Source of the DNA: a virus
Virus record (IMG/VR): IMGVR_UViG_3300032053_000058
Span: 1-64,000 of that record
Length of the DNA stretch: 64,000 nucleotides
Reading direction: 5' to 3' (one strand)
Part shown: positions 36,987 through 63,562 of the stretch, piece by piece
How positions within the stretch are numbered: the stretch's first letter is position 1
Layout of the letters: the number at the start of each line of letters is the position of its first letter
The notes under the pieces: model-generated
The model's database searches: none
What the model saw: the letters and a program-made list of their open reading frames with translations, nothing else
What the model was told of the DNA's origin: nothing
Program-made: the position numbers and the translations under genes

Positions 36987-37019
36987 TTGACTTCTGCAAA
37001 ATCTGTGATATACTTGAAT
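36987..37019 (+). promoter_or_regulatory. Stereotyped promoter module 1 (leaderless)
   Basis: -35 TTGACT at 36987-36992, 16-bp spacer, -10 TATACT at 37009-37014 with TGA just before it, then 5 nt to the ATG at 37020. Confidence 0.85.
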
Positions 37020-37172
37020 ATGCAACGAAAAGAAATCATGGCCGCAGCCCGAACCCAAAAGTCCAATGCTTCGTGCATTACGAACAAACGGGGCAAGGCT
37101 CGCCATGCCAAACGGCAGGGTGCTAAACGAGTCCGCCAACAACTTCAGCAACGGTTGAAGAAAGAACTATGA
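37020..37172 (+). CDS. Small basic protein, leaderless start
   Basis: 50 residues, strongly basic (KRGKARHAKRQGAKRVRQQ), likely to bind nucleic acid. The first ATG sits where transcription should begin. A second ATG at 37038 (MAAART) would give an 18-nt leader with a weak purine-rich site, so the start is open. Confidence 0.65.
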   Translation: MQRKEIMAAARTQKSNASCITNKRGKARHAKRQGAKRVRQQLQQRLKKEL

Positions 37173-37546
37173 AACCACTACAGTTTCCTCGCGTTGTCCG
37201 AATACGCGGCTATGAATACGTGATTGATTACGTGAATAAGCCGCGTGAAGTGGACCGCGATTTGGCAATCGTTGATCTTGTGGGACAATGTGCCCCTGGG
37301 AATCCTGGTTGTATACGTGTTCTAACGACACAACAAAGCATCGGAATTCTGGATACAGTCATCCATGAAATTCTCCACGCCATTTTCAACCGAAACACAG
37401 TCTTACCGGCTGCCATTCGACCAGAGATTGGTGCTGAAGCCTTCATCGGAGCACTTGGAATCGAACTTGCCAACCTGTTAGTTGATAACGGTTGGATCAA
37501 GTTGCCCGAGACTGTGAAACCAACGGACGTGCGCATCAACGCATAA
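37169..37546 (+). CDS. HExxH putative metalloprotease-like protein
   Basis: 125 residues. VIHEILHAIFNRN near residue 70 gives a zinc-type HExxH within a helix, and an acidic residue follows (PEIGAEAF, ~92). The N-terminus is beta-rich. The layout recalls small phage zinc proteases, but activity is inferred. Confidence 0.6.
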   Translation: MKPLQFPRVVRIRGYEYVIDYVNKPREVDRDLAIVDLVGQCAPGNPGCIRVLTTQQSIGILDTVIHEILHAIFNRNTVLPAAIRPEIGAEAFIGALGIELANLLVDNGWIKLPETVKPTDVRINA

Positions 37547-37560
37547 ACCTGGAGTAAACC

Positions 37561-37875
37561 ATGAAATATCTGTTGACTCTCGTCGTGCTGCTTGCTGGTT
37601 GCCAGGCGACACCCACCACATTCGCGTTACATGGTAAGGTGGTCGGTGTTGCCTCGATAGCTTCGCCCAACTATTGGGCCTTTGCCGTCCAAACCGACAC
37701 CGGTGTAATACCGATCATTGTCGTTGAGCGCGACAATTGCCTGGACAAGAAGACTCTTGTGCGATTTCGCACGCTGCACTCCAATCAAGAACTACTCAAC
37801 AAGCGGGTCACGGTATTCGGACTTCGCCGTGACGGTCACTACATTGCCACTTCCGTCTACGAGGATCGACCGTGA
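37561..37875 (+). CDS. Lipoprotein, small beta-rich
   Basis: 104 residues. The signal sequence ends in a lipobox LLAGC (Cys14). The mature part is beta-rich and looks OB-like (LHGKVVGVASI, NKRVTVFGLRR). A CTGGAG site lies before the ATG. Anchored outside the host membrane, function unknown. Confidence 0.75.
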   Translation: MKYLLTLVVLLAGCQATPTTFALHGKVVGVASIASPNYWAFAVQTDTGVIPIIVVERDNCLDKKTLVRFRTLHSNQELLNKRVTVFGLRRDGHYIATSVYEDRP

Positions 37876-38168
37876 TCGAGGCTGATTTTACTGCGCAACT
37901 ACAGGCCATTTTTGCGCTTACGGCTCAAGAAGGACTGACGAAAGCGAAACTCGAATCTAGTGTTGCAGTGTTGCAATACACCAACATGGAAGCATGTTAT
38001 CAAGAGTGCCGCCGTCCGTGGCGCATGGTAGGCGCAATCGTCACTCGTGATGACACCACGAACCGATGGAAGTGTGAGTTTCAGGGCGTCACAGCCTGGG
38101 GTGATACACCGGACATCGCGTGCGACAACTTTGACCACTGTTGGATGTTTGGAAACCGCGCGGAGTGA
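37872..38168 (+). CDS. Hypothetical protein, 98 aa, GTG start
   Basis: Not recognised. The start is a GTG in a GTGA overlap with the lipoprotein gene. A Cys/Trp-rich C-terminal half. Confidence 0.65.
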   Translation: MIEADFTAQLQAIFALTAQEGLTKAKLESSVAVLQYTNMEACYQECRRPWRMVGAIVTRDDTTNRWKCEFQGVTAWGDTPDIACDNFDHCWMFGNRAE

Positions 38169-38171
38169 ACC

Positions 38172-38372
38172 ATGAAATTGTACGGTGTCTATTCAGCCAA
38201 AAGCGCAGCGATGTTTCACGACTCAATTTACATTTGGACGCGCCCCGATGGCACTGAAGTTGAAGTCACAGGCGTTTATGACCAACCAAACGACCCTGCT
38301 TATCTGTGGCCAGATGCCGTATGGCTTGGGGAAGTTTTAACATTCATTCGGAAGAAACCATGCCCAGCGTAG
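38172..38372 (+). CDS. Hypothetical protein, 66 aa
   Basis: Not recognised. Aromatic-rich, mixed strands. It overlaps the nucleotidyltransferase gene by 13 nt. Confidence 0.6.
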   Translation: MKLYGVYSAKSAAMFHDSIYIWTRPDGTEVEVTGVYDQPNDPAYLWPDAVWLGEVLTFIRKKPCPA

Positions 38373-39277
38373 TCTCGCAACTCTCCGCTCGCCATCTTAT
38401 CACGCCGCCGTCCTGGCTCCCGGATAACATCATGTTCGAGGGAATTCAAGGAAGTACCGCCTACGGTGCCGCTGTCGATGATTCTGACTTCGACATGATT
38501 GGTTGGTGCATCCCGCCCAAGGACATTGTATTCCCGCATCTTGCAGGACAGATCGACGGCTTCGGGCGTCAGAAACAGAAGTTCGTCGGCTACCAGAAAC
38601 ACCACGTTCACGATGCTTCGGCTCTTGGCGGCCGGGGACGCCAGTATGATCTGAACATCTACAATGTCGTCCACTACTTCAACCTGTGCATGGAGAACAA
38701 CCCAAACATGCTCGATTCTTTGTTCCTCCCGGCTGAGTGCATCGTGCATACCAGCATCGTGGGCAACATGGTTCGAGAGAGACGGCATCTCTTCTTGCAC
38801 AAAGGGGCGTGGCATCGGTTCAAGGGCTATGCTTTCAGCCAACTTGCCAAGATGGAAACGAAGTCACCCGAACCTGGCAGTAAACGGGCGGTCACTGTTG
38901 AGCAATACGGCTTTGACACAAAGTTTGCTTGCCATCTCGTGCGCCTCATGTATGAGGTCGAACAAATCCTGACGACTGGCGACCTGGACCTGCGCCGCAA
39001 CTCCGAAGAATTGAAGTCAATCCGCCGGGGCGAATGGACTGCCCAACAGATTCGAGAGTTCTTTGCCGCCAAAGAAAAGGGCTTAGAAGCCATCTACGAG
39101 GCTTGTGAGATTCTTCCGTGGGGACCGCGCGAAGACGAGATCAAGCAACTGTTGCTGGATTGCCTCGAAGAGCATTATGGGCATCTGGAAGGTTGCATCG
39201 TCACTGATATGACACCGGTACTTGCTCTCCGTGAGATCGCCAACGTTCTCGACCGGCATCGGAGTCTGTTGAAATGA
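38360..39277 (+). CDS. RlaP-like nucleotidyltransferase
   Basis: 305 residues. GSTAYG (G31-S32) followed by DDSDFDMIG (D43, D45) is the nucleotidyltransferase core. YDLNIYNVVHYFNLCMENNP and MLDSLF match the RNA-ligase-associated RlaP family as I know it. C-terminal helical half. It may add or remove nucleotides at RNA ends before sealing by the ligase at 18266-19342. Confidence 0.8.
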   Translation: MPSVVSQLSARHLITPPSWLPDNIMFEGIQGSTAYGAAVDDSDFDMIGWCIPPKDIVFPHLAGQIDGFGRQKQKFVGYQKHHVHDASALGGRGRQYDLNIYNVVHYFNLCMENNPNMLDSLFLPAECIVHTSIVGNMVRERRHLFLHKGAWHRFKGYAFSQLAKMETKSPEPGSKRAVTVEQYGFDTKFACHLVRLMYEVEQILTTGDLDLRRNSEELKSIRRGEWTAQQIREFFAAKEKGLEAIYEACEILPWGPREDEIKQLLLDCLEEHYGHLEGCIVTDMTPVLALREIANVLDRHRSLLK

Positions 39278-39690
39278 TCTTCTATCAAGTGCGCGACAAA
39301 CGAACTGGTCTCTGGTACAAACGCGGCCCCGATCAAGTTAAATGGGTCGCCCAAGAAATGGCGTCAGTTTGGACCACACCATCCGGGCCGCAAGGTTGTT
39401 TGCAGATCATTGCCCGTTACAACCGCCGCCGTGCGCATCCCGACTATCGGCGTGTTCCCGAAGTCATCCCGTTGCAAGTCAAAGACCCTCCCACAGTGAC
39501 ATTCGTAGACGGCGATGATTGGCAAGGTCTCTACCTTAACGGCAAACTGGTTGAAGAGGGGCACTGTGTTCGTGTTGATGATATACTCCGTCGCCTGGGA
39601 ATTGCCTGTGAACAAATCTATGCCGACGATCAATGGTTGGCTAAGCGAGGCAGTCTGCCTGAGAACCGCAACGACATCAAAGAGGGATAA
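39274..39690 (+). CDS. Hypothetical protein, 138 aa
   Basis: Not recognised. The segment DGDDWQGLYLNGKLVEEGH followed by VDDILRRLGI looks like a small domain of strand-strand-helix type. ATGA overlap with the nucleotidyltransferase gene. Confidence 0.65.
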   Translation: MIFYQVRDKRTGLWYKRGPDQVKWVAQEMASVWTTPSGPQGCLQIIARYNRRRAHPDYRRVPEVIPLQVKDPPTVTFVDGDDWQGLYLNGKLVEEGHCVRVDDILRRLGIACEQIYADDQWLAKRGSLPENRNDIKEG

Positions 39691-39693
39691 AAC

Positions 39694-40224
39694 ATGCTAC
39701 GAATCAACTTCTATGGAGGTCCGGGTGTCGGCAAGAGTACGCTTGCGGCAAAAGTCTATGCGGCCTTGAATCAAGGTGGAACTGCCGAGTTGGTCCGTGA
39801 GTTCGTCAAGTCTTGGGCGTATGAAGGACGGCAACCTGACGCCTTCGATCAAGTCTACACTTTCGCCAATCAGTTGTGGAGCGAACACCGTCTCCACAAG
39901 GCCGGAGTAAAAGTCATCGTGACCGATTCCCCGGTCCTATTGCAATGTGTCTACGCCGAGCGTTTAGACTGCGGTATTGCGGCCAACTTGATTGACATAG
40001 CGAAACGCTATGAACAGTATCACCAGTCGCTTAATTTTCTGGTCTATCGAAACATACCATATAACCCGGCGGGGCGTTTCCAATCTGCCAATGACAATGA
40101 ATTGATCGTCTTGGACACGCGCATCAAATACAGTCTTGACAAATGGGGTCTAACTTACCACTCTGTCTGCCCCGATGACTGGCAATTCATCCTCCAAACT
40201 GTCAAGGAATTTGCTCATGCGTGA
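39694..40224 (+). CDS. P-loop ATPase/kinase-like protein
   Basis: 176 residues. Walker A GGPGVGKST starts at residue 8, and VIVTDSPVLLQ (~75) acts as Walker B. The rest resembles nucleoside/nucleotide kinase-like AAA proteins of phages; NPAGRFQSANDNE could be the lid. A polynucleotide-kinase role beside the RlaP-like gene is possible but not shown. Confidence 0.75.
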   Translation: MLRINFYGGPGVGKSTLAAKVYAALNQGGTAELVREFVKSWAYEGRQPDAFDQVYTFANQLWSEHRLHKAGVKVIVTDSPVLLQCVYAERLDCGIAANLIDIAKRYEQYHQSLNFLVYRNIPYNPAGRFQSANDNELIVLDTRIKYSLDKWGLTYHSVCPDDWQFILQTVKEFAHA

Positions 40225-40438
40225 TCCCGAAGTACCCAAGCATCAAAAGAAGGCTTTACCAGCGCGACAAAAGAAATATGGCATTGAACAATGGAGTCGT
40301 TGGTTTGGGCGCTGGTGTCTCCCAACGTGGTACAGAACCGAAAAGGCCCGAGATCAAGCCTTCGAGAATCAGATTACCAAAACCACAATCCTTCGGCAAT
40401 CAAACTACGATAACCCACTGCGAAAGGTGGACCGATGA
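40217..40438 (+). CDS. Small basic hypothetical protein, 73 aa
   Basis: Not recognised. Lys/Arg/Trp-rich (KKALPARQKKYGIEQWSRW). It overlaps the kinase-like gene by 8 nt and the next by ATGA. Confidence 0.6.
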   Translation: MRDPEVPKHQKKALPARQKKYGIEQWSRWFGRWCLPTWYRTEKARDQAFENQITKTTILRQSNYDNPLRKVDR

Positions 40439-40701
40439 CAGACACACCCGCCACCATTGAAGACATCGAAGTCGCTATCAAACGTGCCTATCAAATGGGT
40501 CAACTCGAAGTTGTCGGGCGAGTCAATGTTCAACGGGTCCGTGTACTGAAAGAACGATTTGACCGTCTTGAGACACAGTTGCAAGTCACCCCAGATGACG
40601 AGTTATTGCGTAAGACTCTTCGAGTTCGCAAGCAACTTTTACGTGCCTGCGAAACGGGAGTCCGCAATGAGTTGAAATTGAAGGAATTGATGGAACAATG
40701 A
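40435..40701 (+). CDS. Coiled-coil hypothetical protein, 88 aa
   Basis: Not recognised. Helical and strongly charged with heptad spacing (VLKERFDRLETQLQV). ATGA overlaps on both sides. Confidence 0.6.
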   Translation: MTDTPATIEDIEVAIKRAYQMGQLEVVGRVNVQRVRVLKERFDRLETQLQVTPDDELLRKTLRVRKQLLRACETGVRNELKLKELMEQ

Positions 40702-41875: not shown

Positions 41876-41919
41876 TGTCGCTTAGACGATAGCCCGTCAA
41901 CATCTTCGGGAGGCTCTGA

Positions 41920-42602: not shown

Positions 42603-42904
42603 GATGCGACCAACCTCAAGGATTGCCTCCGACTGCCACGACCTTTCTTGCCAAGCATGAAATTGACGAAGATTGTTGCCGAGCCTGCAAGCGACCCTTT
42701 CCTCGCCATTGGGAGGTAGTCGGCCACTATGAAGGCTTCGATACTCACGATCTATACCGGCATCAATTAAAGGACGGCCGGACAGCCGACGAGTTTCTTC
42801 AAGCCACCCCCTGGTCATCCGGGCCGATGTTCTTTCTCGGTCTTCGGGTATCAGACGGCACAGAATTTGCATGGAGTGAAGAAGAAATCGACCGAGCCAT
42901 TTGA
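42599..42904 (+). CDS. Hypothetical protein, 101 aa
   Basis: Not recognised. It contains one Cys pair (CCRACKRPF). Its TGA stop (42902-42904) lies inside the -35 hexamer of the promoter for the sigma factor gene. Confidence 0.65.
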   Translation: MRCDQPQGLPPTATTFLAKHEIDEDCCRACKRPFPRHWEVVGHYEGFDTHDLYRHQLKDGRTADEFLQATPWSSGPMFFLGLRVSDGTEFAWSEEEIDRAI

Positions 42905-42934
42905 CTTCTGCCAAATCCGTGGTATGATTGTAGT
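42901..42934 (+). promoter_or_regulatory. Stereotyped promoter module 2 (leaderless)
   Basis: -35 TTGACT 42901-42906, 16-bp spacer, -10 TATGAT 42923-42928 with TGG before it, then 6 nt to the ATG at 42935. The upstream stop codon is within the -35. Confidence 0.9.
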
Positions 42935-43492
42935 ATGAACGAACGCATTGAACTTGACGCAACGTTGGTTGCCCGTTACGTGGCGGGGGACGAGAGTGCT
43001 TTTGTCGCTCTCTATGAGCACTATACTCCTTTGCTGCGAACCTGGGCCACGTCCTGGTTGGGTGGATGCCATCGAGACGATATTGATGACATTGTGCAAC
43101 ATGTGTTTATTGACTTCCACGAAGGTCGGGATGCAGTCTACAGTGTGCGGGGGCATCTCCGCAACGCATTGCGTCGGCATCTTATCGACTATAAACGCTA
43201 CATACTGCGCCAACGACGGAATCCAACCCGCGAGACGCATGGTTACGAAGTCACTGACAATGTTGACCCGGCGACTCAAGTCGAACAGGATGAAGCAAAC
43301 AAACTCCTACGGAGTTTGGTCGCCAGGTTGCCTGAACGCGAGCGTAATTGCATCGAGCAGGTGCATCTGGCAGGTCGCAGTTGCCATGATTATGCGAAGG
43401 AACTTAACACCCACGTCAACAATGTGAAGCGATGGACCAACGAAGGTCTGGAACGACTCCGTGAATACTATCATTGTCAACCTCAAGACTGA
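42935..43492 (+). CDS. ECF-type sigma factor
   Basis: 185 residues. Region 2: DESAFVALYEHYTPLLRTWA, then DDIVQHVFIDFHE; region 4: ARLPERERNCIEQVHLAG, then YAKELNTHVNNVKRWTNEGLERLR as the helix-turn-helix. The lack of regions 1 and 3 fits ECF sigma factors. It is expressed from a promoter of the repeated family. It could help switch gene classes during infection. Confidence 0.85.
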   Translation: MNERIELDATLVARYVAGDESAFVALYEHYTPLLRTWATSWLGGCHRDDIDDIVQHVFIDFHEGRDAVYSVRGHLRNALRRHLIDYKRYILRQRRNPTRETHGYEVTDNVDPATQVEQDEANKLLRSLVARLPERERNCIEQVHLAGRSCHDYAKELNTHVNNVKRWTNEGLERLREYYHCQPQD

Positions 43493-44095: not shown

Positions 44096-44312
44096 TATTT
44101 CTCGTGCCGGAGAAAAATGGGGCAACCCGTTCGAGATCGGTCGTGATGGCACCCGTGAACGAGTAATCAAGATGTACGAAGTACATATCCGCAGGTCGCC
44201 CAAGTTACTTGCGGCCCTCCCTGAGTTGGTCGGCAAACGGCTGGGTTGTTATTGCAAACCGCTGGCGTGCCACGGAGACGTGTTGATTCAACTGTTGAAG
44301 GAACTAGCATGA
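44031..44312 (+). CDS. DUF4326-like protein
   Basis: 93 residues. VVVNKRLEKYDVDISRAGEKW, WGNPFEIGRDG and LGCYCKPLACHGDVL match the DUF4326 pattern as I know it. The function is unknown; the Cys/His end may bind metal. It overlaps the endonuclease gene by 65 nt. A GTG at 44013 is an alternative start. Confidence 0.75.
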   Translation: MLSTTSNNTVVVNKRLEKYDVDISRAGEKWGNPFEIGRDGTRERVIKMYEVHIRRSPKLLAALPELVGKRLGCYCKPLACHGDVLIQLLKELA

Positions 44313-44716
44313 ACTTTCCAAGACATGAACGCGGCCCGTACCGAGGTCGGTATCTCGACCCGCAAGGTCAACTGACTGGTTCGTTTACACAACTCATGGA
44401 AGCTGGGTGCATCCAAGCCGAGAACCGGGAGTTGGAACCACTCTTCTATGCGTTAATGCTCGCAACGATGAAGAATCCTTGCGACGGTTGCCCGGTCTGG
44501 GGCAACAAGGGGCCAGAGTGCCAAGCGTTCCAACAGTACCACACGGCTTATACCCAAGCCATCGAAACACAACAACAAGTCATCAAGGAAGCCACGACGC
44601 CAAGTAATGTCCCCGCCGAGCATCCGCTGGCCGGACTCAGCGTGAAACAGATCGCTGCCAAACTCAACGTGAGTATCAGCGAAGTCCGTCGTAGAAAGGC
44701 CGCTGGAACACTATGA
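44309..44716 (+). CDS. Hypothetical protein with C-terminal HTH, 135 aa
   Basis: The C-terminus LAGLSVKQIAAKLNVSISEVRRRKAAG is a clear helix-turn-helix. The middle has CDGCPVWG and C, a possible metal site. ATGA overlaps on both sides. Not otherwise recognised. Confidence 0.65.
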   Translation: MNFPRHERGPYRGRYLDPQGQLTGSFTQLMEAGCIQAENRELEPLFYALMLATMKNPCDGCPVWGNKGPECQAFQQYHTAYTQAIETQQQVIKEATTPSNVPAEHPLAGLSVKQIAAKLNVSISEVRRRKAAGTL

Positions 44717-48591: not shown

Positions 48592-48624
48592 TTGACTTTA
48601 GCCCATTGTGTTGTAGGATTGAAT
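48592..48624 (+). promoter_or_regulatory. Stereotyped promoter module 3 (leaderless)
   Basis: -35 TTGACT 48592-48597, 16-bp spacer that differs from the family (tagcccattg), -10 TAGGAT 48614-48619, 5 nt to the ATG at 48625. Confidence 0.8.
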
Positions 48625-49071
48625 ATGGACACAGCACTTGAAGTTCTCCGTCAACTATCCCAAGTCCATAACTTGGGTGACTGCGTTTACGACATCCGTG
48701 AACGTGAATGTCTGGGATGGGAAGGCCCGAAGGTCGTGGCATGGGGCAAGGCTTGCGAACGCGCCCAACAATTGCTCGACCACACAGATGAAGATTACTT
48801 CGACTGCGAACGTGTCCTACGAGAAAGTGGCGCAAGTATTACTTACTCAATGACATTCCAGGATGGGATGGGGCGTATCTTCAACGATCCGTTCCCCGGC
48901 TACGTCCTTACCTGGAATAACGAAACTGTTTCATTTGGCGGCCTGGATGAACACCGCGCACGCCATGCCGGAGGCGTCTATGTCTACTTGCGGCGGTCGG
49001 GCATCTCTTCTACGCTTGCCAACAAGTTGGCTATGTCCTACGCTTTCCTTTTACCCGAGGATGATCTGTGA
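48625..49071 (+). CDS. Hypothetical protein, leaderless start, paralogue of 45086-45664
   Basis: 148 residues. The ATG directly follows the -10 element, so no leader is expected. The C-terminal block (GGVYVYLRRSGISSTLANKL) matches the zinc-knuckle protein at 45086. Acidic and mixed; function unknown. Confidence 0.7.
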   Translation: MDTALEVLRQLSQVHNLGDCVYDIRERECLGWEGPKVVAWGKACERAQQLLDHTDEDYFDCERVLRESGASITYSMTFQDGMGRIFNDPFPGYVLTWNNETVSFGGLDEHRARHAGGVYVYLRRSGISSTLANKLAMSYAFLLPEDDL

Positions 49072-53539: not shown

Positions 53540-54094
53540 CTAGATTTCATTCGGGCCGCTCGTTTCCAGATTGTTCCACCCTACGCCGTGGTGACACCGA
53601 TACCAAAGCGCCAAGTCGGCAGGGTCCGATAAATCGAAGTCAACCACGGCGCGCGGTTCCCCGTAACGGGTTTCGTCACGCGGAACCTTGCCGCCCCGGA
53701 TTGCTTCTGCCAAGTGGTAGGCCGCGCTCTTGTCTCCCCGGTCGAATCGAATCCGGCCGGTTAGATGTAGGCCCCACATGGCTGCGCCCGCAAGAGTGTC
53801 GGACTTTGCCAGCGCCTTGCGGTAGGCGCGGATGTAGCTTTCCGGTTTCGTCACGCGGCCGCGCAGTTTCGTCATGCCGCCAGAACACCCGGCAGCGAAG
53901 CGGCAACACGAACCAATCACTTCCCATTCCGGGCCGATGCACGTTGCGCCCCAACTGCGCGCACGCCGCCCGCGCATATCGCGGACGTTGTTATCCCCGC
54001 CTAATTCCAGGACGATGTACACATCTTCATAGTGGTCAATCACTTCTTTCGGGAAGTGAATCACCTCTATTCGGTCAACAATGTGAGTGCTCAT
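53540..54094 (-). CDS. Hypothetical protein, 184 aa
   Basis: Not recognised. Balanced composition with IGSCCRFAAGCSGG and a helical middle. It overlaps the upstream gene by one base. The plus-strand ORF across it is a shadow. Confidence 0.65.
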   Translation of the reverse strand: MSTHIVDRIEVIHFPKEVIDHYEDVYIVLELGGDNNVRDMRGRRARSWGATCIGPEWEVIGSCCRFAAGCSGGMTKLRGRVTKPESYIRAYRKALAKSDTLAGAAMWGLHLTGRIRFDRGDKSAAYHLAEAIRGGKVPRDETRYGEPRAVVDFDLSDPADLALWYRCHHGVGWNNLETSGPNEI

Positions 54095-54543
54095 TAGGCC
54101 CTCACCACGCGGACAGATTGGAAGGGCGCGCCAGTCACGGCACCACCACCACTAGAATCACGCCGGGCGATTTCCAAGTGAATCGGAATCGTGCCCGTGC
54201 TTTTGCCGACCTGGAAACGTCGCCGCTGGCCGTAACAGTCAACGACTTCCACGCGCTTGCCCTCCAAGCCCGTAAGCTGGGGCGTCAATTCGACGGGGCA
54301 ACGCCGATTGTGATGCAAACAGTAACTTACCACGCGCTGCAAGCGTGTCTTGTAGGCTTTGTAACCTCGAATGGTTCCCCGCGCTTCCGGTGGCAGATCG
54401 TCTTCTTGCAGACCTTGCCCACGAAGCCACTTCGCGTAGGCGTTAGCCAGCGCCAAAGTCACATCAAAGCCGAGACAACTATGAAAGTTGCCGTCAGGAA
54501 TAACGTAAAGCTGTTGCTTCACGTTCAAGATAACTTCACTCAT
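54094..54543 (-). CDS. Hypothetical protein, 149 aa
   Basis: Not recognised. VILNVKQQLYVIPDGNFHSC at the N-terminus and a helical basic middle. An AAAGGA site follows a strong hairpin in the leader. Transcribed from the promoter at 54735. Confidence 0.7.
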   Translation of the reverse strand: MSEVILNVKQQLYVIPDGNFHSCLGFDVTLALANAYAKWLRGQGLQEDDLPPEARGTIRGYKAYKTRLQRVVSYCLHHNRRCPVELTPQLTGLEGKRVEVVDCYGQRRRFQVGKSTGTIPIHLEIARRDSSGGGAVTGAPFQSVRVVRA

Positions 54544-54560: not shown

Positions 54561-54613
54561 AAGGCTAGTGGGAAGAAACTGGACCACTATGCCAGTTTCT
54601 TCCCACGAGCCTT
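54561..54613 (-). promoter_or_regulatory. 22-bp hairpin in the leader of 54543 gene
   Basis: Arms 54561-54582 and 54592-54613 pair over 22 bp with one mismatch around a 9-nt loop. On the minus strand CCTTTTAC follows, a short U-run. It may attenuate or stabilise the mRNA. Confidence 0.75.
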
Positions 54614-54707: not shown

Positions 54708-54735
54708 ATCCTAGCACGAATTTGGCAGAAGTCAA
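54708..54735 (-). promoter_or_regulatory. Stereotyped promoter module, minus strand
   Basis: -35 TTGACT (54735-54730), 16-bp spacer as in the family, -10 TAGGAT (54713-54708). Where other copies have ATG, this one has ATT followed by GAG, so there is a leader of about 160 nt. Confidence 0.85.
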
Positions 54736-56002: not shown

Positions 56003-56425
56003 TTATAACACCTTCTGGTAAACAGCGACTTGATTGCCACTTTCCGAGTTGAAAAACCTTGCCGTCAATGTGTAACCCTGCCCACGGAAAAGTTCCTCAC
56101 TCGCCTCATTGCCGCCACGAATCGTACACTGTGCAATCTTTGCGCCGTGTTGCAGGGCTTTCGCTTCGGCATCCCGAAGAAGCCCCTTGGCAATCCCGTG
56201 GCGACGAACATTCGAGCCAACAGACAAATGGCTGATTTCGCACTGATACCATTGTACTTTCGTCACGGCAACAACGCCTAAGACGAGCGAATTGTCCATG
56301 CGAACGTCCATGCGGACAAGGTAACGATCCTGATGTTCAAGGATCATTTCCGGCGTGTAGGAAATTGCAAGTTGATTCTGCTTATTGAGCAGTGCGGCAA
56401 TTTGTTCGGCAGTTCGATGCAACAT
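56003..56425 (-). CDS. GNAT-family acetyltransferase
   Basis: 140 residues. CEISHLSVGSNVRRHGIAKGLL is the acetyl-CoA-binding Arg/Gln-x-x-Gly-x-Gly/Ala motif, followed by CTIRGGNEASEELFRGQGY. Acceptor unknown. The ATG follows GGAGGG at 9 nt; a TTG at 56446 is unlikely because it lies within the -10. Driven by a member of the repeated promoter family. Confidence 0.82.
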   Translation of the reverse strand: MLHRTAEQIAALLNKQNQLAISYTPEMILEHQDRYLVRMDVRMDNSLVLGVVAVTKVQWYQCEISHLSVGSNVRRHGIAKGLLRDAEAKALQHGAKIAQCTIRGGNEASEELFRGQGYTLTARFFNSESGNQVAVYQKVL

Positions 56426-56445: not shown

Positions 56446-56473
56446 ATCATACCACGAGATTCGCAGAAGTCAA
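56446..56473 (-). promoter_or_regulatory. Stereotyped promoter module, minus strand, for GNAT
   Basis: -35 TTGACT (56473-56468), 16-bp spacer, -10 TATGAT (56451-56446), then a 20-nt leader with GGAGGG before the ATG at 56425. Confidence 0.88.
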
Positions 56474-56481: not shown

Positions 56482-56550
56482 CAAAGATTCCGGTTGTCGG
56501 GGTCCGGCCATCCACACCGCCTGACCGGACCCCGACAACTGGAATCTTTG
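56482..56550. repeat. 26-bp inverted repeat between divergent promoters
   Basis: Arms 56482-56507 and 56525-56550 are complementary over 26 bp with one mismatch; the spacer is 17 bp. It fills the gap between the two -35 elements. The core GTTGTCGGGGTC is shared with 52298-52354. Confidence 0.9.
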
Positions 56551-56558: not shown

Positions 56559-56591
56559 TTGACTTCTGCAAACCACATGGTAGTATTGAAT
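56559..56591 (+). promoter_or_regulatory. Stereotyped promoter module (leaderless)
   Basis: -35 TTGACT 56559-56564, 16-bp spacer, -10 TAGTAT 56581-56586, 5 nt to the ATG at 56592. Confidence 0.85.
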
Positions 56592-56960
56592 ATGAGCATT
56601 ACAGTACCACGACTCGCTAAGGGTAAAGGTTACAAGGGGCCAGAGTTTTACGGGTGTTTCAATACCGGTATGGCCCCGTCAATCTTTCATTCACGCACAG
56701 GCAAATACGTGGTGGGGCCACAATTGCGTTGCCATGACGCTATGCGAGAAGGCTTGACCTTCTCCAAGAAGCGCGTACACGGAACGGGCAACCAACGGGT
56801 GTGGATTTTCAAGGGCCGCAAGGCCGCCGTCGCCAAGTTTATAGGATTGTGTGAAATGGCGGAAGCGGTCAACCGTGACATTGCCTCACAGCATACCGAA
56901 ACCCGCCGCAAGGCCGCTACGGGTGACTTCGCCGCTATGTTAGCTTTAGGTGACTTCTAA
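56592..56960 (+). CDS. Hypothetical protein, leaderless, 122 aa
   Basis: Not recognised. Basic N-terminal half (LAKGKGYKGPEFYG, SKKRVHGTGNQRVW) and a helical C-terminal half. First gene of the small-gene region on the plus strand. Confidence 0.7.
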   Translation: MSITVPRLAKGKGYKGPEFYGCFNTGMAPSIFHSRTGKYVVGPQLRCHDAMREGLTFSKKRVHGTGNQRVWIFKGRKAAVAKFIGLCEMAEAVNRDIASQHTETRRKAATGDFAAMLALGDF

Positions 56961-57275: not shown

Positions 57276-57395
57276 ATGTGCAACAAGTGCCCGATTTGTG
57301 GCAGTGAAGAGTGGTACGAAAACCGTAGTGACGGTTTCGTATGGCGGGAGTGTGATACTTGCGGACACAAGATTGTTGTCAAGAATCCAACTTGA
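57276..57395 (+). CDS. Zinc-ribbon microprotein, 39 aa
   Basis: CNKCPICGSEEW and CDTCGHKI form one complete zinc ribbon and little else. Its TGA (57393-57395) lies inside the -35 of the next promoter. Confidence 0.7.
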   Translation: MCNKCPICGSEEWYENRSDGFVWRECDTCGHKIVVKNPT

Positions 57396-57424
57396 CTTCT
57401 CCGAAACACATAGTAGAGTTGAGT
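57392..57424 (+). promoter_or_regulatory. Stereotyped promoter module (leaderless)
   Basis: -35 TTGACT 57392-57397, 16-bp spacer, -10 TAGAGT 57414-57419, 5 nt to the ATG at 57425. Contains the upstream stop. Confidence 0.85.
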
Positions 57425-57682
57425 ATGACACACAACGAAGAACTAGCCGCCGCCGTGGGAGCAAGTCGCTTGCGGCTACGCAAGCGTTTCATGGAAGCAA
57501 AGTCGGTTATGTCCCGTGGACTGAGCCGACTTTTCAAGGGCGCAAGACTCGACTTCGAGAACAAGCGTTTCATCGGGCAAGGGTACGCCCTGCAATGGGC
57601 ACTTCGTCGCTGGCCTGACCGCCCGGAAAGTTACGAAAACCAACAAACCAACCGGGGCGACGTATCATTGGTGCAACTATGA
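57425..57682 (+). CDS. Small basic hypothetical protein, leaderless, 85 aa
   Basis: Not recognised. Arg/Lys-rich helix (GASRLRLRKRFMEAKSVM), possibly DNA-binding. ATGA overlap with the next gene. Confidence 0.65.
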   Translation: MTHNEELAAAVGASRLRLRKRFMEAKSVMSRGLSRLFKGARLDFENKRFIGQGYALQWALRRWPDRPESYENQQTNRGDVSLVQL

Positions 57683-58314: not shown

Positions 58315-58358
58315 TTGACTTCTCTGAATTGCAAACTATGATTAAGTAGGAGAACACA
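58315..58358 (+). promoter_or_regulatory. Stereotyped promoter module (with leader)
   Basis: -35 TTGACT 58315-58320, 16-bp spacer, -10 TATGAT 58337-58342, then a 16-nt leader with TAGGAG before the ATG at 58359. Confidence 0.88.
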
Positions 58359-58667
58359 ATGAAGATCAACGGTACGAAGTACGATACAATGTTCCACGGT
58401 ATGCAAGCCGTGGTGAAACACCTGGGCGGTCCTGTTGCCGTCAAAGCCACATTTGAAGCGCTCACAGAGCGCCGGATGTTATGGGATTTATGGCACACCG
58501 TTGACAAAGACTTGCGTTATGATGACGCGCATCCGAATTTCCAATCCGGCGGGTGGATTCGGGTAATCCCACAGAATCCGACCTTTGACGTATTTTCGGA
58601 CGGCGTGAATGACGCACACATCGAAACCACCTTACGGCGCATCGGCCAAGAACTGGGCATTATATGA
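58359..58667 (+). CDS. Hypothetical protein, 102 aa
   Basis: Not recognised. A mixed, Trp-containing protein. The leader has a standard ribosome site, unlike the leaderless neighbours. Confidence 0.65.
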   Translation: MKINGTKYDTMFHGMQAVVKHLGGPVAVKATFEALTERRMLWDLWHTVDKDLRYDDAHPNFQSGGWIRVIPQNPTFDVFSDGVNDAHIETTLRRIGQELGII

Positions 58668-58930
58668 CACACATACTCGCACTACTTCGCAAACCGTCCG
58701 GCCGTGGTTATCTCCGCTGTTGGACTGGATTCTTGTTTGACACGATTGTCCAGTCAGAAGTCGAGCAATTCATGCTTGAAGTACATCAGCGCGATTACTT
58801 CTTGACGGACCCGGACGAGTTGAAAAGGAACGACGTGGGAAACCTTCTGTACAATGGACTTTGGGTAATGGAAACGCCCGTGCGCGTGCGGACCCGAGGG
58901 GTGCATACCACTTTCACAATCAAAATTTGA
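58664..58930 (+). CDS. Hypothetical protein, 88 aa
   Basis: Not recognised. Its stop TGA (58928-58930) is in the -35 of the next module. ATGA overlap upstream. Confidence 0.65.
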   Translation: MTHILALLRKPSGRGYLRCWTGFLFDTIVQSEVEQFMLEVHQRDYFLTDPDELKRNDVGNLLYNGLWVMETPVRVRTRGVHTTFTIKI

Positions 58931-58960
58931 CTTCTGCCAAATCTGTGCTAGGATTGTAGT
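58927..58960 (+). promoter_or_regulatory. Stereotyped promoter module (leaderless)
   Basis: -35 TTGACT 58927-58932, 16-bp spacer, -10 TAGGAT 58949-58954 with TGC before it, 6 nt to the ATG at 58961. Nearly identical to the module at 42901. Confidence 0.9.
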
Positions 58961-59326
58961 ATGAGAACCATGAAACAAATCATCCGCGCTTGCACTGATA
59001 CCGGCAACGGTCCCCGTTACAAGGAAATCACGGGCTACGTTCACCCGGCCCTTCCAGGATTGGCCGTGGCCCGCGCCTGTTTCACAAGTGATTCGGGTTG
59101 GATTCTGTCACATACAGGTACGGGCCTGCGTTGTGGCACAATGAAGGATAAGCGGGAAGCTATCCTCGTCTTGGAGCAGTTAATCCCCGCTGGTATCGAC
59201 TGGACCCTTGACCGTGACAACCTCTTGCGGGCTTATCCCCGCTTGCACCTACGGCAAACGGTTGAGAAGGCAATCGAAGCCGCGCGGCTTGGACGACCCC
59301 GGCAGAAATTCCTTTTCCCCGCTTGA
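58961..59326 (+). CDS. Hypothetical protein, leaderless, 121 aa
   Basis: Not recognised. Mixed alpha/beta with a basic C-terminal helix (LRQTVEKAIEAARLG). Its stop lies in the -35 of the next promoter. Confidence 0.65.
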   Translation: MRTMKQIIRACTDTGNGPRYKEITGYVHPALPGLAVARACFTSDSGWILSHTGTGLRCGTMKDKREAILVLEQLIPAGIDWTLDRDNLLRAYPRLHLRQTVEKAIEAARLGRPRQKFLFPA

Positions 59327-59383
59327 CTTCTCCGAAACACATGGTATGCTTGAATAGGTTCAACAACACAACAAGAGCAACAA
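59323..59383 (+). promoter_or_regulatory. Stereotyped promoter module (with leader)
   Basis: -35 TTGACT 59323-59328, 16-bp spacer, -10 TATGCT 59345-59350, then a 33-nt leader beginning TGAATAGG instead of TGAATATG. Confidence 0.88.
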
Positions 59384-59734
59384 ATGACCAACATCCGAAT
59401 CAGTAACCGCGAAGATTGCATCAAGTTTCTCGCCGGTGCCCGTAGCAAGGCCAATGGCCGCCCGATTGCAAAGAACCTCCGCGTTTTCCAGCGGGGCGAC
59501 GATTACGCCGTCCAGTATCACTGGACCGACATTGTGACGTTCCACGCGAACGGCGACGTGACCCTCCGCAACGGCAGCTACCGAACGTCAAGTACGAAGG
59601 GCAACATCAATTCCTTCGCGCCGGTTTCGGTTTGGCAGAAGCGGCACAACTGGTACATCGTCCTTGACGGGCGGGAAATCCCCTTCCGTGAAGGTATGCG
59701 AATCGACCCTACAACGTCGCGTATCGTCAATTAG
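59384..59734 (+). CDS. Hypothetical protein, 116 aa
   Basis: Not recognised. Beta-rich (DDYAVQYHWTDIVTFHANGD). It ends before a strong terminator. Confidence 0.65.
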   Translation: MTNIRISNREDCIKFLAGARSKANGRPIAKNLRVFQRGDDYAVQYHWTDIVTFHANGDVTLRNGSYRTSSTKGNINSFAPVSVWQKRHNWYIVLDGREIPFREGMRIDPTTSRIVN

Positions 59735-59747
59735 CCGCCCGGCCCCT

Positions 59748-59790
59748 GGCCGCGCCCGCTACCCTCCTGGCGGGCGCGGCCCCTCTTCTT
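59748..59790 (+). terminator. Rho-independent-type terminator
   Basis: A perfect 12-bp G+C stem (59748-59759 with 59770-59781), 10-nt loop, then CCTCTTCTT. Confidence 0.8.
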
Positions 59791-59809
59791 GGAGCGAACA
59801 AGAGCAAAC

Positions 59810-59998
59810 ATGAGAATGAACACGCATAGCAAAGCCGTCAGTCTGGGCTTTCCCTACATCGCCGCTGACAGGCACGAAAGCCCCGACCGTCTAGTCTGGT
59901 TTAGTCACTTCTGCAAGACGGCTGACCGTTCGGACCCTGGCATTTTCATCGGGTGGAATCAAGCGTTCCATTGCTGGGTGGTAGAACAACCGAAATGA
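59810..59998 (+). CDS. Hypothetical protein, 62 aa
   Basis: Not recognised. Trp-rich C-terminus (WNQAFHCWVVEQ). It stands between two strong hairpins, so it may be transcribed on its own or by read-through. Confidence 0.6.
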   Translation: MRMNTHSKAVSLGFPYIAADRHESPDRLVWFSHFCKTADRSDPGIFIGWNQAFHCWVVEQPK

Positions 59999-60006
59999 GT
60001 GAAGAG

Positions 60007-60037
60007 GCCCCGGCCGGGTTTGCTCCCCGGCCGGGGC
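60007..60037. terminator. Strong G+C hairpin
   Basis: 12-bp stem (60007-60018 with 60026-60037) and 7-nt loop, no T-run. It follows the gene ending at 59998. Confidence 0.65.
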
Positions 60038-60040
60038 TGA

Positions 60041-60176
60041 TGGACAACGATTGAAGGCGCAGGTTCAACGTCCTGCCGGATGCAACCCTGACAGCGGCCT
60101 ACCCTGCCGTCAGTGGGCTTGGAAAGGCGGAAGCCCCAACAAAGACATTCGTGGTGTAAGGTGCATATCAATCTTT
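60041..60176 (+). other. Structured gene-free stretch before tRNA-like element
   Basis: No CDS is supported. Small hairpins are visible: GCAGG/CCTGC, CTGAC/GTCAG and GGGCTT/AAGCCC. It could be a small RNA or a tRNA precursor leader. Confidence 0.4.
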
Positions 60177-60250
60177 ACGTGCCAATGTTCCAAGGCTAGG
60201 CGAACGAGACTCCAAATCCCGTTGGCAGGGTTCGATTCCCTGGGTGCGTG
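60177..60250 (+). tRNA. tRNA-like element, possible tRNA-Trp (CCA)
   Basis: The T arm CAGGG-TTCGATT-CCCTG and the anticodon loop CTCCAAA are good. The 7-bp acceptor ACGTGCC/GGTGCGT has two G-T pairs. The anticodon stem CGAGA/TCCCG has a mismatch, and the D stem is only about 3 bp with no T at position 8. It may be degenerate. Its end abuts the -35 of the next promoter. Confidence 0.45.
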
Positions 60251-60251
60251 C

Positions 60252-60284
60252 TTGACTTCTCGAAATCACATGGTAGAGTTGAAT
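60252..60284 (+). promoter_or_regulatory. Stereotyped promoter module (leaderless)
   Basis: -35 TTGACT 60252-60257, 16-bp spacer, -10 TAGAGT 60274-60279, 5 nt to the ATG at 60285. Confidence 0.85.
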
Positions 60285-60716
60285 ATGAAAACAGAAAAGG
60301 GAAAGATCGTCAAAAGTGGCATGGGCGGATTCTTGAATCCACCTACCCACCCGGAACACGATTGGAGCGTCCAGACTGGCCTACGCCGCCGCCCTGAGAA
60401 TCGCGGTAGCATGTACCTAAGTAGCGCAGTCGAGTGCGAATGGCTTGACCCCGCCACGCGGGCGGCTGCTAAGCAACGGCTTAGCAGTTGGCAGCGCCCA
60501 CCCCTCGAATCCGTGCGTGAATGGGTCTTGCAGGTACTCGGCTACTTCCGCAATTGCTACAACCTGACCGGGACCGACGATTGGAGTGTGGGTAGGTTGA
60601 CCATCGCCGACGCCGACCCGATGCTTAACGCCGACAACCACGCCGGGGTGCATTTGATCCGCAAATACTACCCGGAATACACGCCCACGGCCGATGATTT
60701 CGGCGGGGCCTACTGA
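60285..60716 (+). CDS. Hypothetical protein, leaderless, 143 aa
   Basis: Not recognised. WLDPATRAAAKQRLSSW and YFRNCYNLTGTDDWSVGRL suggest a helical domain. The start at 60285 fits the promoter; upstream codons belong to the tRNA-like element. Confidence 0.7.
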   Translation: MKTEKGKIVKSGMGGFLNPPTHPEHDWSVQTGLRRRPENRGSMYLSSAVECEWLDPATRAAAKQRLSSWQRPPLESVREWVLQVLGYFRNCYNLTGTDDWSVGRLTIADADPMLNADNHAGVHLIRKYYPEYTPTADDFGGAY

Positions 60717-60727
60717 GGGAGCAAACC

Positions 60728-61138
60728 ATGACTTGTATTCGTTGTGCCCGCTGCAATCTGCCCGTCAAGGTTGACGGGGAAATCGGCAAGTTACGCCTTG
60801 CCAATCCTGGCAACCACGATTCGACGGGACCAACTGAAACCGCCGTATGCCCCGGTTCGGAGCAACTAGGTATTGTGGAACACTCCATTTGGGTGCGCGT
60901 GGGGGACGCCGGGGCGTATGAATCTTTTGACTCCCTAACCGACGCCCTCGACTACCTGAATGAGTTGAATGTCGGCAAGGTAACAGGGTGGCGCGCTCTT
61001 GGATTCGACACTCCCAACTTCTGGGGACAAGACTACATCAGCATTTACCACGGCACCGCCGACGCCGACGCGCTAGGCGAGTTGACCGCCGACGAAAAGG
61101 CCACCCTCGAATCAGGGCTTATCGAGATTTTCGCTTGA
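60728..61138 (+). CDS. Zinc-knuckle hypothetical protein, 136 aa
   Basis: CIRCARCNLPV and C at ~40 may bind zinc. The C-terminal half is acidic and aromatic. GAGGGAG precedes the ATG. Its stop (61136-61138) lies in the -35 of the next promoter. Confidence 0.65.
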   Translation: MTCIRCARCNLPVKVDGEIGKLRLANPGNHDSTGPTETAVCPGSEQLGIVEHSIWVRVGDAGAYESFDSLTDALDYLNELNVGKVTGWRALGFDTPNFWGQDYISIYHGTADADALGELTADEKATLESGLIEIFA

Positions 61139-61167
61139 CTTCTCCGAAACACATGGTAGGGTTGAGT
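61135..61167 (+). promoter_or_regulatory. Stereotyped promoter module (leaderless)
   Basis: -35 TTGACT 61135-61140, 16-bp spacer, -10 TAGGGT 61157-61162, 5 nt to the ATG at 61168. Confidence 0.85.
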
Positions 61168-61353
61168 ATGAACAAGCCAAGCAAACAAGAAGTCGTCGAT
61201 GCCCTGGAAATCCTCTTGAAGTGGGCCACGGGTGGCGACAAGCACAGTAACCCCTATTGCTATCCAGCCGTCAAGCACGCCTTGAAAGTGCTGGCCCGCG
61301 AACGGGGTATAACCGATTGGCTTGACGTGGAACTGCGAAACCTACCAATCTAA
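61168..61353 (+). CDS. Hypothetical protein, leaderless, 61 aa
   Basis: Not recognised. Helical, with KQEVVDALEILLKWATGG and AVKHALKVLARER. Confidence 0.65.
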   Translation: MNKPSKQEVVDALEILLKWATGGDKHSNPYCYPAVKHALKVLARERGITDWLDVELRNLPI

Positions 61354-61364
61354 GGGAGCAAACA

Positions 61365-61706
61365 ATGGCGTACATCTATCAGGCCGATGTGTGGTGTGAT
61401 GATTGCGGTAAGGCAATCTGTGAGCAATTACAGAAGGCTGGCCTTGCCCCCGCGAATCCCGCCGACGAACACACTTTTGACAGCGACGAATATCCCAAGC
61501 GCGCGGGCGACGATGATGAATCTGATTCGCCGCAACACTGCGCCGCCGGGGAGGATTGCCTTAACGCAATCGTGTTGCCCGGTGGCAATGTAGGTTTCCT
61601 GTTTGGCGAGTTGACCGCCGTGGGCGTCGAATACGTCAAGGAGGCCATTGCCGAGGGCGGTGAGGTTGCCGACTTGTGGAAGGAACACTATGCCGACTAC
61701 CTATAA
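61365..61706 (+). CDS. Hypothetical protein with zinc-type Cys pairs, 113 aa
   Basis: CDDCGKAIC at the start and an acidic middle (SDEYPKRAGDDDESDS), then C residues near 60. An AAGGGAG site precedes the ATG. Not identified. Confidence 0.65.
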   Translation: MAYIYQADVWCDDCGKAICEQLQKAGLAPANPADEHTFDSDEYPKRAGDDDESDSPQHCAAGEDCLNAIVLPGGNVGFLFGELTAVGVEYVKEAIAEGGEVADLWKEHYADYL

Positions 61707-61857
61707 TCGGACAACGGACCCGGCGGCCCGCAAAGCGCTGGCCGCCGACTTGCGTGAAATCCGTCACTACTACGCCAGAAGGGCTATTGGTTTTGCAAGG
61801 CCGTCCTGGGGAACTTCTACACGGGGCTTGCGTGCAAGCCGTGGGATGGGAACATGA
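61690..61857 (+). CDS. Hypothetical protein, 55 aa
   Basis: Not recognised. Basic helix (RKALAADLREIRHYYARRA). It overlaps the gene before it by 17 nt and the next by ATGA. Confidence 0.5.
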   Translation: MPTTYNRTTDPAARKALAADLREIRHYYARRAIGFARPSWGTSTRGLRASRGMGT

Positions 61858-62051
61858 CGACAAAATGGCTTCTATCCAAGACTCTTTTCGGAAACGATCC
61901 GATGCCCCAACACTTTGTTGCCAGCGACGGGGCACACTACTTTGGAATCCTCCAATCAATTGAACGTGAGGATGGAAGCGGGCAATCTTTCAATGTCCGC
62001 ATTGCCAACCAAAGTGGTAACACCACCTTTCACGTCAAGACTGAGGATTGA
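61854..62051 (+). CDS. Hypothetical protein, 65 aa
   Basis: Not recognised. Beta-type composition with DGAHYFGILQSIERED. ATGA upstream, TTGA downstream. Confidence 0.6.
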   Translation: MTTKWLLSKTLFGNDPMPQHFVASDGAHYFGILQSIEREDGSGQSFNVRIANQSGNTTFHVKTED

Positions 62052-62281
62052 ACAATGAACCATCGTTTCAAGTCGAGTTTACTCGAAGCATCGAAGAGGA
62101 TTTGCCACCCACGCAAATTAACTTCCCGGACCTAGCCGAGTGGTTGGAACGCTGCCACCGGACTGTCAAGAGGGCAAGGAAGGGGGCACGTATGATACAG
62201 GCAAGCCGACAAGCAGCAACTATCGGCACAACCTTGTGCGGGCCGTCAAAGCTTGCTTCCGGTGGGCAGAAGATGAAATGA
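62048..62281 (+). CDS. Hypothetical protein, 77 aa, TTG start
   Basis: Not recognised. It begins in a TTGA overlap. The last third (Ser/Gly/Ala) looks low-complexity. A competing 25-residue frame starts at 62055. Confidence 0.5.
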   Translation: MNNEPSFQVEFTRSIEEDLPPTQINFPDLAEWLERCHRTVKRARKGARMIQASRQAATIGTTLCGPSKLASGGQKMK

Positions 62282-62294
62282 GAAACCACTTACA

Positions 62295-62504
62295 ATGATT
62301 ATCGGGGTCACTTCCACCATGCCTAAAATCAACCAAGATACTGCCCTTCAAGCCATTTATGCCCTTCTGGACATACTTGACGGACAACAGGATCACGACC
62401 TAGAATACAATACCGGCTTGCCGTCCGCCCGATGTGCGGAAATCGCGGACCTCCGATCCCGCCTCGTGGTCGAATACGGAAGCGGGTGGTTGAATCGAAT
62501 TTGA
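62295..62504 (+). CDS. Hypothetical protein, 69 aa
   Basis: Not recognised. Helical (ALQAIYALLDILDGQQDHDL). The start could also be the ATG at 62319 (MPKINQD), which reads more naturally. Confidence 0.6.
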   Translation: MIIGVTSTMPKINQDTALQAIYALLDILDGQQDHDLEYNTGLPSARCAEIADLRSRLVVEYGSGWLNRI

Positions 62505-62505
62505 T

Positions 62506-62552
62506 TTGACTTCTGCCAATCTTGTGCTATGCTTGAATAGAAAGGGAACAAC
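62506..62552 (+). promoter_or_regulatory. Stereotyped promoter module (with leader)
   Basis: -35 TTGACT 62506-62511, 16-bp spacer, -10 TATGCT 62528-62533, 19-nt leader with AAAGGG before the ATG at 62553. Confidence 0.88.
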
Positions 62553-62819
62553 ATGAACAAGTTGCACAACAACCACGAAATCGCTAAACGGCATACCAAG
62601 CCGCTGAACCAGAAGTGCGTGGAACTGGTCTACGTTCGGATCTGCCGACCCGTCGCCCGCCCCACCACCTTGCACGCCGGAAGAGCGTCACTGTTAGTTG
62701 TCGGTAACGGGCGTATCGTTGACGACTCACGGTTCCCGGTCGATGTGTGCGAAAACCGCGACGTATGGATTCATCCGCGTAGTAAACCCCCTTATCGTCT
62801 TGCAGGGTACGCAACGTGA
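62553..62819 (+). CDS. Hypothetical protein, 88 aa
   Basis: Not recognised. Basic N-terminus (HNNHEIAKRHTKPLN) followed by strands. It ends in a GTGA overlap. Confidence 0.65.
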   Translation: MNKLHNNHEIAKRHTKPLNQKCVELVYVRICRPVARPTTLHAGRASLLVVGNGRIVDDSRFPVDVCENRDVWIHPRSKPPYRLAGYAT

Positions 62820-62968
62820 CCACAAGCAAGCGAATCGTCCGAAACCTAGCAACCGCCATGACCTGGCTTGACCGTGAGGTTAAGCCGTGGGATGATTTGC
62901 CCGCCGCCGATGTTCGGAAGTTGCGGGAAGCCCTCACCGTGGTCAACAAACTCTTGGAGAAGAAATGA
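62816..62968 (+). CDS. Hypothetical protein, 50 aa, GTG start
   Basis: Not recognised. Helical (KRIVRNLATAMTWLDREV). GTGA and ATGA overlaps flank it and support it. Confidence 0.6.
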   Translation: MTTSKRIVRNLATAMTWLDREVKPWDDLPAADVRKLREALTVVNKLLEKK

Positions 62969-63165
62969 GCGATCCGATTGTCCGCCCCGTGACCGACCAG
63001 CGTTGTGTTTTCCAAACGGGCCTTGATCTCGTTGGCCGCCCGGTGCGTTGCATACGCAAGGCTACCTTGTCGCTTGACGGCAAGCCGCTCTGTGACTACC
63101 ACGCCGAACTCGCAATGGCCGCCGCTTGCGGCCGGAATGTCAAAATCGAGCGCAACCTGACTTGA
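62965..63165 (+). CDS. Hypothetical protein, 66 aa
   Basis: Three Cys and a His (RCVFQT, RCIRKATLSLDGKPLCDYH) could form a zinc site. Its stop is in the -35 of the next module. Confidence 0.65.
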   Translation: MSDPIVRPVTDQRCVFQTGLDLVGRPVRCIRKATLSLDGKPLCDYHAELAMAAACGRNVKIERNLT

Positions 63166-63195
63166 CTTCTGCCGATTCTGTGCTAAGATTGTAGT
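63162..63195 (+). promoter_or_regulatory. Stereotyped promoter module (leaderless)
   Basis: -35 TTGACT 63162-63167, 16-bp spacer, -10 TAAGAT 63184-63189 with TGC before it, 6 nt to the ATG at 63196. Confidence 0.88.
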
Positions 63196-63531
63196 ATGGA
63201 CAGAACGGCAGAATACAATGATTACGTCCGCGATGTGTGCGGGTTTCTTCGCAAACTCGCTCCCGCCGATGCCGACTGGATTCTTAATGATACCGTTCTT
63301 GTCGCCTCTCTTTGGCGCAAGACGGTAGCCGGTTGGAATCAAACGGCGCGCCCCGCACAAATTGCCGCCGACTGGTATGGCGACTACATCGACAAGACGC
63401 CGGTTGTCGGGGTCGGACCAATCACTCGGGTTGCCCCAGTTGTTCGCTGGAAATCGGACATTCCCGCCGACATACTCGCAAATCGAGAAAAACGCCGCCT
63501 ACTTTGGAAAGCGGCATACTTGACTTCTTGA
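63196..63531 (+). CDS. Hypothetical protein, leaderless, paralogue of 57679-58062
   Basis: 111 residues. AADWYGDYIDKTPVVGVGPITRV and the end RRLLWKAAYLTS align with the 57679 product. Bases 63400-63414 repeat the arm of the inverted repeats at 56482 and 52298. Function unknown. Confidence 0.7.
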   Translation: MDRTAEYNDYVRDVCGFLRKLAPADADWILNDTVLVASLWRKTVAGWNQTARPAQIAADWYGDYIDKTPVVGVGPITRVAPVVRWKSDIPADILANREKRRLLWKAAYLTS

Positions 63532-63562
63532 AAACACATGCTAGATTTGAGTAGGTTCAACA
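63520..63562 (+). promoter_or_regulatory. Stereotyped promoter module (with leader)
   Basis: -35 TTGACT 63520-63525, 16-bp spacer, -10 TAGATT 63542-63547, 15-nt leader with TAGG before the ATG at 63563. The end of the gene upstream lies within the spacer. Confidence 0.85.

Follow-up and report, generated by a model that had tools for sequence, protein, structure and literature searches.

Module copies and described promoter systems

The early promoters of phage T4 are read by the host polymerase, and they carry near-consensus elements and extra consensus regions, for which reviewers credit optimised polymerase contact (PMC2988021). The module considered in this study, TTGACT-N16-TAnnnT, resembles them in its near-consensus -35 box, its TG extended -10 and its -10 box, in a consensus that reaches beyond the core, and in standing in many copies before small, presumably early genes (PMC2988021). 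It differs from them in spacing and -35 sequence (17 bp and TTTACT in T4, 16 bp and TTGACT here), in that no AT-rich UP region is seen, and in that half of its copies are predicted to be leaderless. A crude sample of hexamer matches from T4 itself, which mixes true and false sites since early promoters are unannotated in that record, gave an average spacer identity of 0.29, with two sites sharing most of the spacer. The PeSL cassettes of T4-like phages (Arbiol 2010; Comeau 2014) are likewise short promoter-bearing blocks between shuffled accessory genes, but the cassettes as outlined in PMC4503421 include a stem-loop, whereas most modules lack a stable one in the upstream 60 nt. A stem-loop of that kind was rejected for all copies except the one at 56473 on the minus strand, folding energies of the upstream 60 nt being within the range of random windows.

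Two other systems invite comparison. In bacterial leaderless genes, TANNNT lies about 12 bp ahead of the start codon (PMC3160421), and in those of Deinococcus-Thermus and Actinobacteria it is found 11-12 nt before the ATG (PMC3160421, PMC12340547), as it is in 10 of the 19 module copies described below. Phages also make use of leaderless mRNAs, as phiYS40 does for its middle and late genes (PMC3594737) and as is predicted here. Unlike the bacterial examples, the arrangement is limited here to copies of the module and is accompanied by a strong -35 box and a conserved spacer. The stoperators of Cluster A mycobacteriophages, finally, are 20-30 asymmetric, mostly co-oriented sites that vary in sequence between related phages (PMC6550527), and to this extent they are like the modules. 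They lie mostly off promoters, however, and need an immunity repressor, while the modules are promoter-like and stand at gene starts.

Anatomy and positions of the module

The window, by which I mean the whole stretch of 64,000 nt that was analysed, belongs to a 68,475-bp IMG/VR record (G000) that is linear and may be a fragment. A preliminary description of the window reported 15 copies of the module, 13 on the plus strand and 2 on the minus, always with exactly 16 bp between the hexamers. All 15 were recovered at the same coordinates, as against 0.33 expected and at most 2 in dinucleotide shuffles, and spacings of 13-15 and 17-21 bp gave zero matches in the window. The whole record holds 19 sites, all with the 16-bp spacing and so within the range of 16-18 bp used by primary sigma factors. 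They are listed here, with d5 and d6 denoting an ATG that stands 5 or 6 nt beyond the -10 box.

36987..37022, plus strand: module; ATG at 37020 (d5) of a predicted leaderless 50-aa ORF, the weakest of the ten copies of leaderless type; gene uncertain, the ORF overlapping another frame
42901..42937, plus strand: type A module; ATG at 42935 (d6), predicted leaderless start of a sigma-factor gene
48592..48627, plus strand: divergent module (TTGACTTTAGCCC...); ATG at 48625 (d5)
54708..54735, minus strand: type A module; ends in ATT, without a start codon; a strong hairpin precedes the next gene, which lies 164 nt downstream
56446..56473, minus strand: module with leader; gene 56003-56425 (GNAT acetyltransferase)
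56559..56594, plus strand: module; ATG at 56592 (d5)
57392..57427, plus strand: type B module; ATG at 57425 (d5)
58315..58342, plus strand: divergent module with a Shine-Dalgarno-type leader; ATG at 58359
58927..58963, plus strand: type A module; ATG at 58961 (d6); the upstream stop codon is the TGA of the -35 box
59323..59350, plus strand: type B module with leader; ATG at 59384
60252..60287, plus strand: type B-like module directly after tRNA-Trp; ATG at 60285 (d5)
61135..61170, plus strand: type B module; ATG at 61168 (d5)
62506..62533, plus strand: type A module with leader; ATG at 62553
63162..63198, plus strand: type A module; ATG at 63196 (d6)
63520..63547, plus strand: type B-like module with leader; ATG at 63563
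64597 and 65070 (plus strand), 67712 and 68316 (minus strand): modules outside the window, the two on the minus strand with a third spacer type, TCTTCGGATTATGTG

A matrix built from the 19 sites gives those sites scores of 35-49 bits and never exceeds 10 bits in the rest of the record; the equal density of matches inside genes that the preliminary description had set against its own reading was not found. The gap in scores and the shuffles together rule out a chance origin of the modules. When the sites are aligned on their hexamers, the consensus is a module of 37 bases, TTGACTTCTgCcAAAtctgTGcTAtgaTTGwrTATG. The -35 box carries a conserved TCT extension on its downstream side, and an extended -10 TG lies one base upstream of the -10 box (T in 16 and G in 16 of the 19). 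Conservation goes on for about 8-9 nt beyond the -10 box, through a start region that reads TTGARTA or TTGTAGTA, and then fades; the preliminary description had not mentioned this part, so the module is longer than it stated. The sequence TTGACTTCT occurs 18 times (1.03 expected), which is also the number of modules that contain it. Upstream of the modules, where an AT-rich UP region was looked for and none seen, the AT content is 0.36 at 25-40 bases from the -35 box, compared with 0.47 for the genome, and 0.53 nearer the box. The TGA within TTGACT closes a 60-codon frame at 7 of 19 modules and at 8 of the 44 other TTGACT sites, a mild enrichment.

The position of the modules relative to genes is as regular as their makeup. 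Seventeen of them stand directly before the start of an ORF, the exceptions being the minus-strand copies at 54735 and 67712, which have no close ORF start. In 10 of the 19 the terminal ATG, located 5-6 nt downstream of the -10 box, is the first codon of an ORF 50-185 aa long. By chance, such an ATG with an ORF of 45 aa or more behind it is expected at a rate of 0.0116 (binomial P ~4e-15), and TANNNT is found at the same distance from 4 of the 171 other ATG starts in the record. In the remaining seven the ORF begins 15-33 nt downstream, several of them behind Shine-Dalgarno-like leaders. If transcription starts 6-7 nt past the -10 box, the mRNAs of the ten copies would begin with AUG, which predicts leaderless mRNAs at about half of the modules; that these would be translated is suggested by the match of the start-codon distance to that of bacterial leaderless genes (PMC3160421). 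The crowding of copies at 54-64 kb noted in the preliminary description holds for 12 of the 15 in the window, and the dense zone runs on to 68.3 kb.

The proteins encoded downstream of modules have no similarity to one another at E 1e-3 and mostly none to proteins of ten related records. Two of the genes are recognisable, those for an ECF-like sigma factor (42935-43492, plus strand) and for the GNAT acetyltransferase. A second sigma-like gene lies at 12985-13854, and a third protein (44246-44716) has weak similarity to sigma region 4, below the Pfam cut-off. No integrase or repressor was seen in the part of the gene set that was scanned.

Some of the surrounding DNA has features of its own. 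Between the divergent modules at 56473 (minus) and 56559 (plus) is an inverted repeat of 26 bp with a single mismatch (CAAAGATTCCGGTTGTCGGGGTCCGG; 56482-56550) and a folding z-score of -9.4, and part of one of its arms, CGGTTGTCGGGGTC, recurs at about 63400. The 164-nt leader between the module at 54735 (minus) and the gene at 54094-54543 contains a 5-codon ORF, MTLPD, and a strong hairpin at 54568-54606 on the minus strand, GTGGGAAGAAACTGG...CCAGTTTCTTCCCAC followed by TTTT; with a z-score of -5.7, this leader looks like an attenuator. The right arm had no match in Rfam.

Related and unrelated phages

The DNA polymerase of G000 has 18 matches among viral contigs, at 57-81% identity. Its matches in isolated phages are weak (about 24-29%, over part of the protein), placing it in an uncultured lineage, and no similar DNA was found in isolated phages. 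Of the relatives found through the polymerase, nine were examined over all or nearly all of their length or by way of a shared contig. G001 has eight sites above 20 bits, five of them with an ATG 5-7 nt downstream of the -10 box. In G024 (DNA polymerase 55% identical), TTGAC-N17-TATACT occurs at about 14 sites, most of them with TTGTAATA directly behind; the 16-bp spacing is overwhelmingly predominant in both phages. The sigma-factor gene at 42935 has a homologue in G001 (7094-7678, minus strand, 31% identity) that is also behind a module, at 7731 on the minus strand, though there the module has a leader whereas the start at 42935 is of the leaderless type.

One to three module-like sites each were found in G028, G010 and G016, and by matrix there is no clear module in seven GC-rich relatives (G004, G005, G008, G011, G013, G014 and G016), of which only G016 shows a pair of sites that keep the spacing but differ in spacer sequence. 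When GC-rich relatives were searched for motifs de novo, no equivalent of the module emerged. The lineage as a whole therefore does not share the signal. Most of the records that carry modules branch outside the GC-rich group in the polymerase tree, with weak support for the branches concerned, so that the presence of the module follows GC content or host no less than it follows descent. In G005 and G016, 9-mers of the type CGTTTATACG are strongly over-represented (6 copies, as compared to 0.05-0.07 expected) and are possibly another regulatory site.

The 22-bp type B sequence TTGACTTCTCCGAAACACATGG is present in two other viral contigs, which are 99.99% identical over 16 kb and represent one phage (L132). 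Apart from this sequence, L132 and G000 share only matches to HNH endonucleases. The copy at 59323 and that at L132:8911 are 93.5% identical over 46 bp, beginning with the first T of TTGACT, and the genes behind the two are unrelated. A search of 2.9 million viral contigs with the leadered form of the module returned only the L132 phage and G001. The copy in L132 may go back to a short ancestral promoter that selection has maintained, or it may have been exchanged between phages of one host.

In 84,980 genomes of cellular species the module had two isolated matches (one in Desulfobacterales, one in a Bacteroidetes MAG), which look like chance because a looser pattern is no denser there than its reversed control. 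The DNA polymerase and exonuclease, and the topoisomerase and RecT-like protein of L132, gave only distant, mixed matches when used to look for the host.

Readings of the conserved spacer

The spacer was described at the outset as conserved, and it is: its mean pairwise identity in G000 is 0.61 (background 0.25), and 0.53 without the bases that adjoin both hexamers. Its division into types A and B calls for small corrections. Both types exist, with some columns linked, but the copy at 60252 fits type B imperfectly (TCTCGAAATCACATGG), those at 48592 and 58315 are divergent, and the third type has to be added. Type B copies with unrelated flanks agree in all 22 bp of -35 box and spacer, those at 59323 and 61135 being identical throughout the spacer, and the flanks of near-identical modules show background identity only. 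Among G000, G001 and G024, the identity of the central spacer is 0.38 between phages, as compared to 0.255 with shuffled letters, and it is 0.115 higher within phages than between them (permutation p = 0.0002). The mid-spacer therefore holds a preference partly shared between phages and a phage-specific part. The former fits a common reader such as the polymerase, and the latter leaves room for a phage-specific factor or for spread by copying.

That the modules are promoters of the primary-sigma type is highly likely in view of the fixed spacing, the TG extended -10, the position before ORFs, the conserved start region and the lack of copies elsewhere in the record. The module probably serves an uncultured lineage of tailed phages as a strong and compact promoter, read by the host's housekeeping polymerase of sigma70/sigmaA type and with a spacer optimised for that polymerase. 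Repetition, fixed spacing, boundaries, a fixed distance to the start codon and the same architecture in relatives are there in the sequence. The parts of such a promoter would be the TTGACT box with its TCT extension, the 16-bp spacer with its TG, the TAnnnT box and the conserved start region; the predicted first transcribed base would be the A of the start codon in about half of the copies, the others having a short leader. Single orphan genes of the accessory arm, and the phage sigma gene, would each have a copy of their own. Selection would act on the stretch from -35 box to start as one polymerase-optimised unit, hence the conserved spacer, and common descent of a few promoter subtypes would add to the likeness. 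Part of the conservation is accounted for because the extended -10 TG and the downstream extension of the -35 box lie inside the spacer. Expression soon after infection is suggested by the promoter type, by the small size and orphan status of the genes, and by the sigma gene's place behind a module.

From the conserved spacer the preliminary description had gone on to propose a regulator bound there. The promoter it started from is well supported; the further step is not established, and it is not required, because in T4 early promoters the consensus extends past the core with no dedicated regulator involved (PMC2988021). Spacer conservation neither calls for a regulator nor speaks against one. 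The proposal would make the spacer a binding site through which a trans-acting phage or host factor coordinates the arm, host polymerase reading the -35 and -10 boxes and the types marking one or two regulators. It draws on the greater likeness of mid-spacers within a phage, the identity that persists outside the bases contacted by polymerase, and the two main types with their linked columns. The mid-spacer preference, however, is partly common to different phages, no palindrome or direct repeat of the dimeric-operator kind is apparent in the module, and no repressor-like protein is among those scanned, all of which leaves a regulator rather unlikely. Far less credible is the idea that an immunity repressor uses the modules as operators or stoperators, in the manner of Cluster A mycobacteriophages. 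The count is similar (19), the sites are asymmetric, mostly of one orientation and contain TTGAC, and their sequence differs between related phages, as that of stoperators does, but most stoperators are not associated with promoters (PMC6550527), while every module has a -10 box at fixed spacing and nearly all precede an ORF. The absence of integrase and repressor among the proteins scanned also tells against it, as far as part of the genes of a possible fragment can.

The phage's own sigma-like proteins (12985-13854 or 42935-43492) might be the readers, and one of them, being behind a module, could then regulate itself. However, the combination of TTGAC, TAnnnT and TG is the consensus of primary sigma factors, not that of ECF factors. 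Moreover, homologues of 12985 occur in nine relatives, seven of them without clear modules, and the sigma gene would need an earlier promoter, so I consider this quite improbable. Nor is it at all plausible that promoter and gene were recently duplicated together to give the copies, which would then carry no selective message. Some spacers are indeed identical, but the duplication of whole units is ruled out by unrelated genes and dissimilar flanks, and local copying between neighbouring promoters was rejected, since spacer likeness does not significantly track genomic distance (Mantel p = 0.16). A short promoter-only cassette is possible. Against the polymerase-optimised reading, a review credits polymerase with no known specific contact to spacer DNA upstream of -15 (PMC2613000), and 22 bases identical in unrelated settings exceed the contacts described there, which leaves some room for a regulator. 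The low average in the T4 sample and the lack of clear modules in seven GC-rich relatives also count against that reading. A more speculative account, to which I give only limited credence, is that the module is a sharply bounded block of promoter and start codon, about 37 bp long, which moves to new places in the genome and also between unrelated phages sharing a host. Any small gene acquired would thereby obtain instant leaderless expression, and the spacer would be read by a dedicated factor or through an unusual polymerase contact.

If the modules are polymerase-optimised promoters, an uncultured lineage gains a readable set of probable early genes, mostly orphans, with exact predicted starts, and the half predicted to be leaderless bears on translation initiation in the host. 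The identical spacer in an unrelated phage, between unrelated flanks, makes it testable whether the spacer is read by sequence, and also whether a promoter of a few tens of bases can pass as a unit from one phage to another.

The record also has five tRNA genes (Tyr, Met, Asn, Glu and Trp) at 2914-3931, 34867-34940 and 60177-60251. Two ORFs at 4190-5628 have collagen-like repeats that match tail-fibre families, and the strongest of the record's short repeats probably stem from them.
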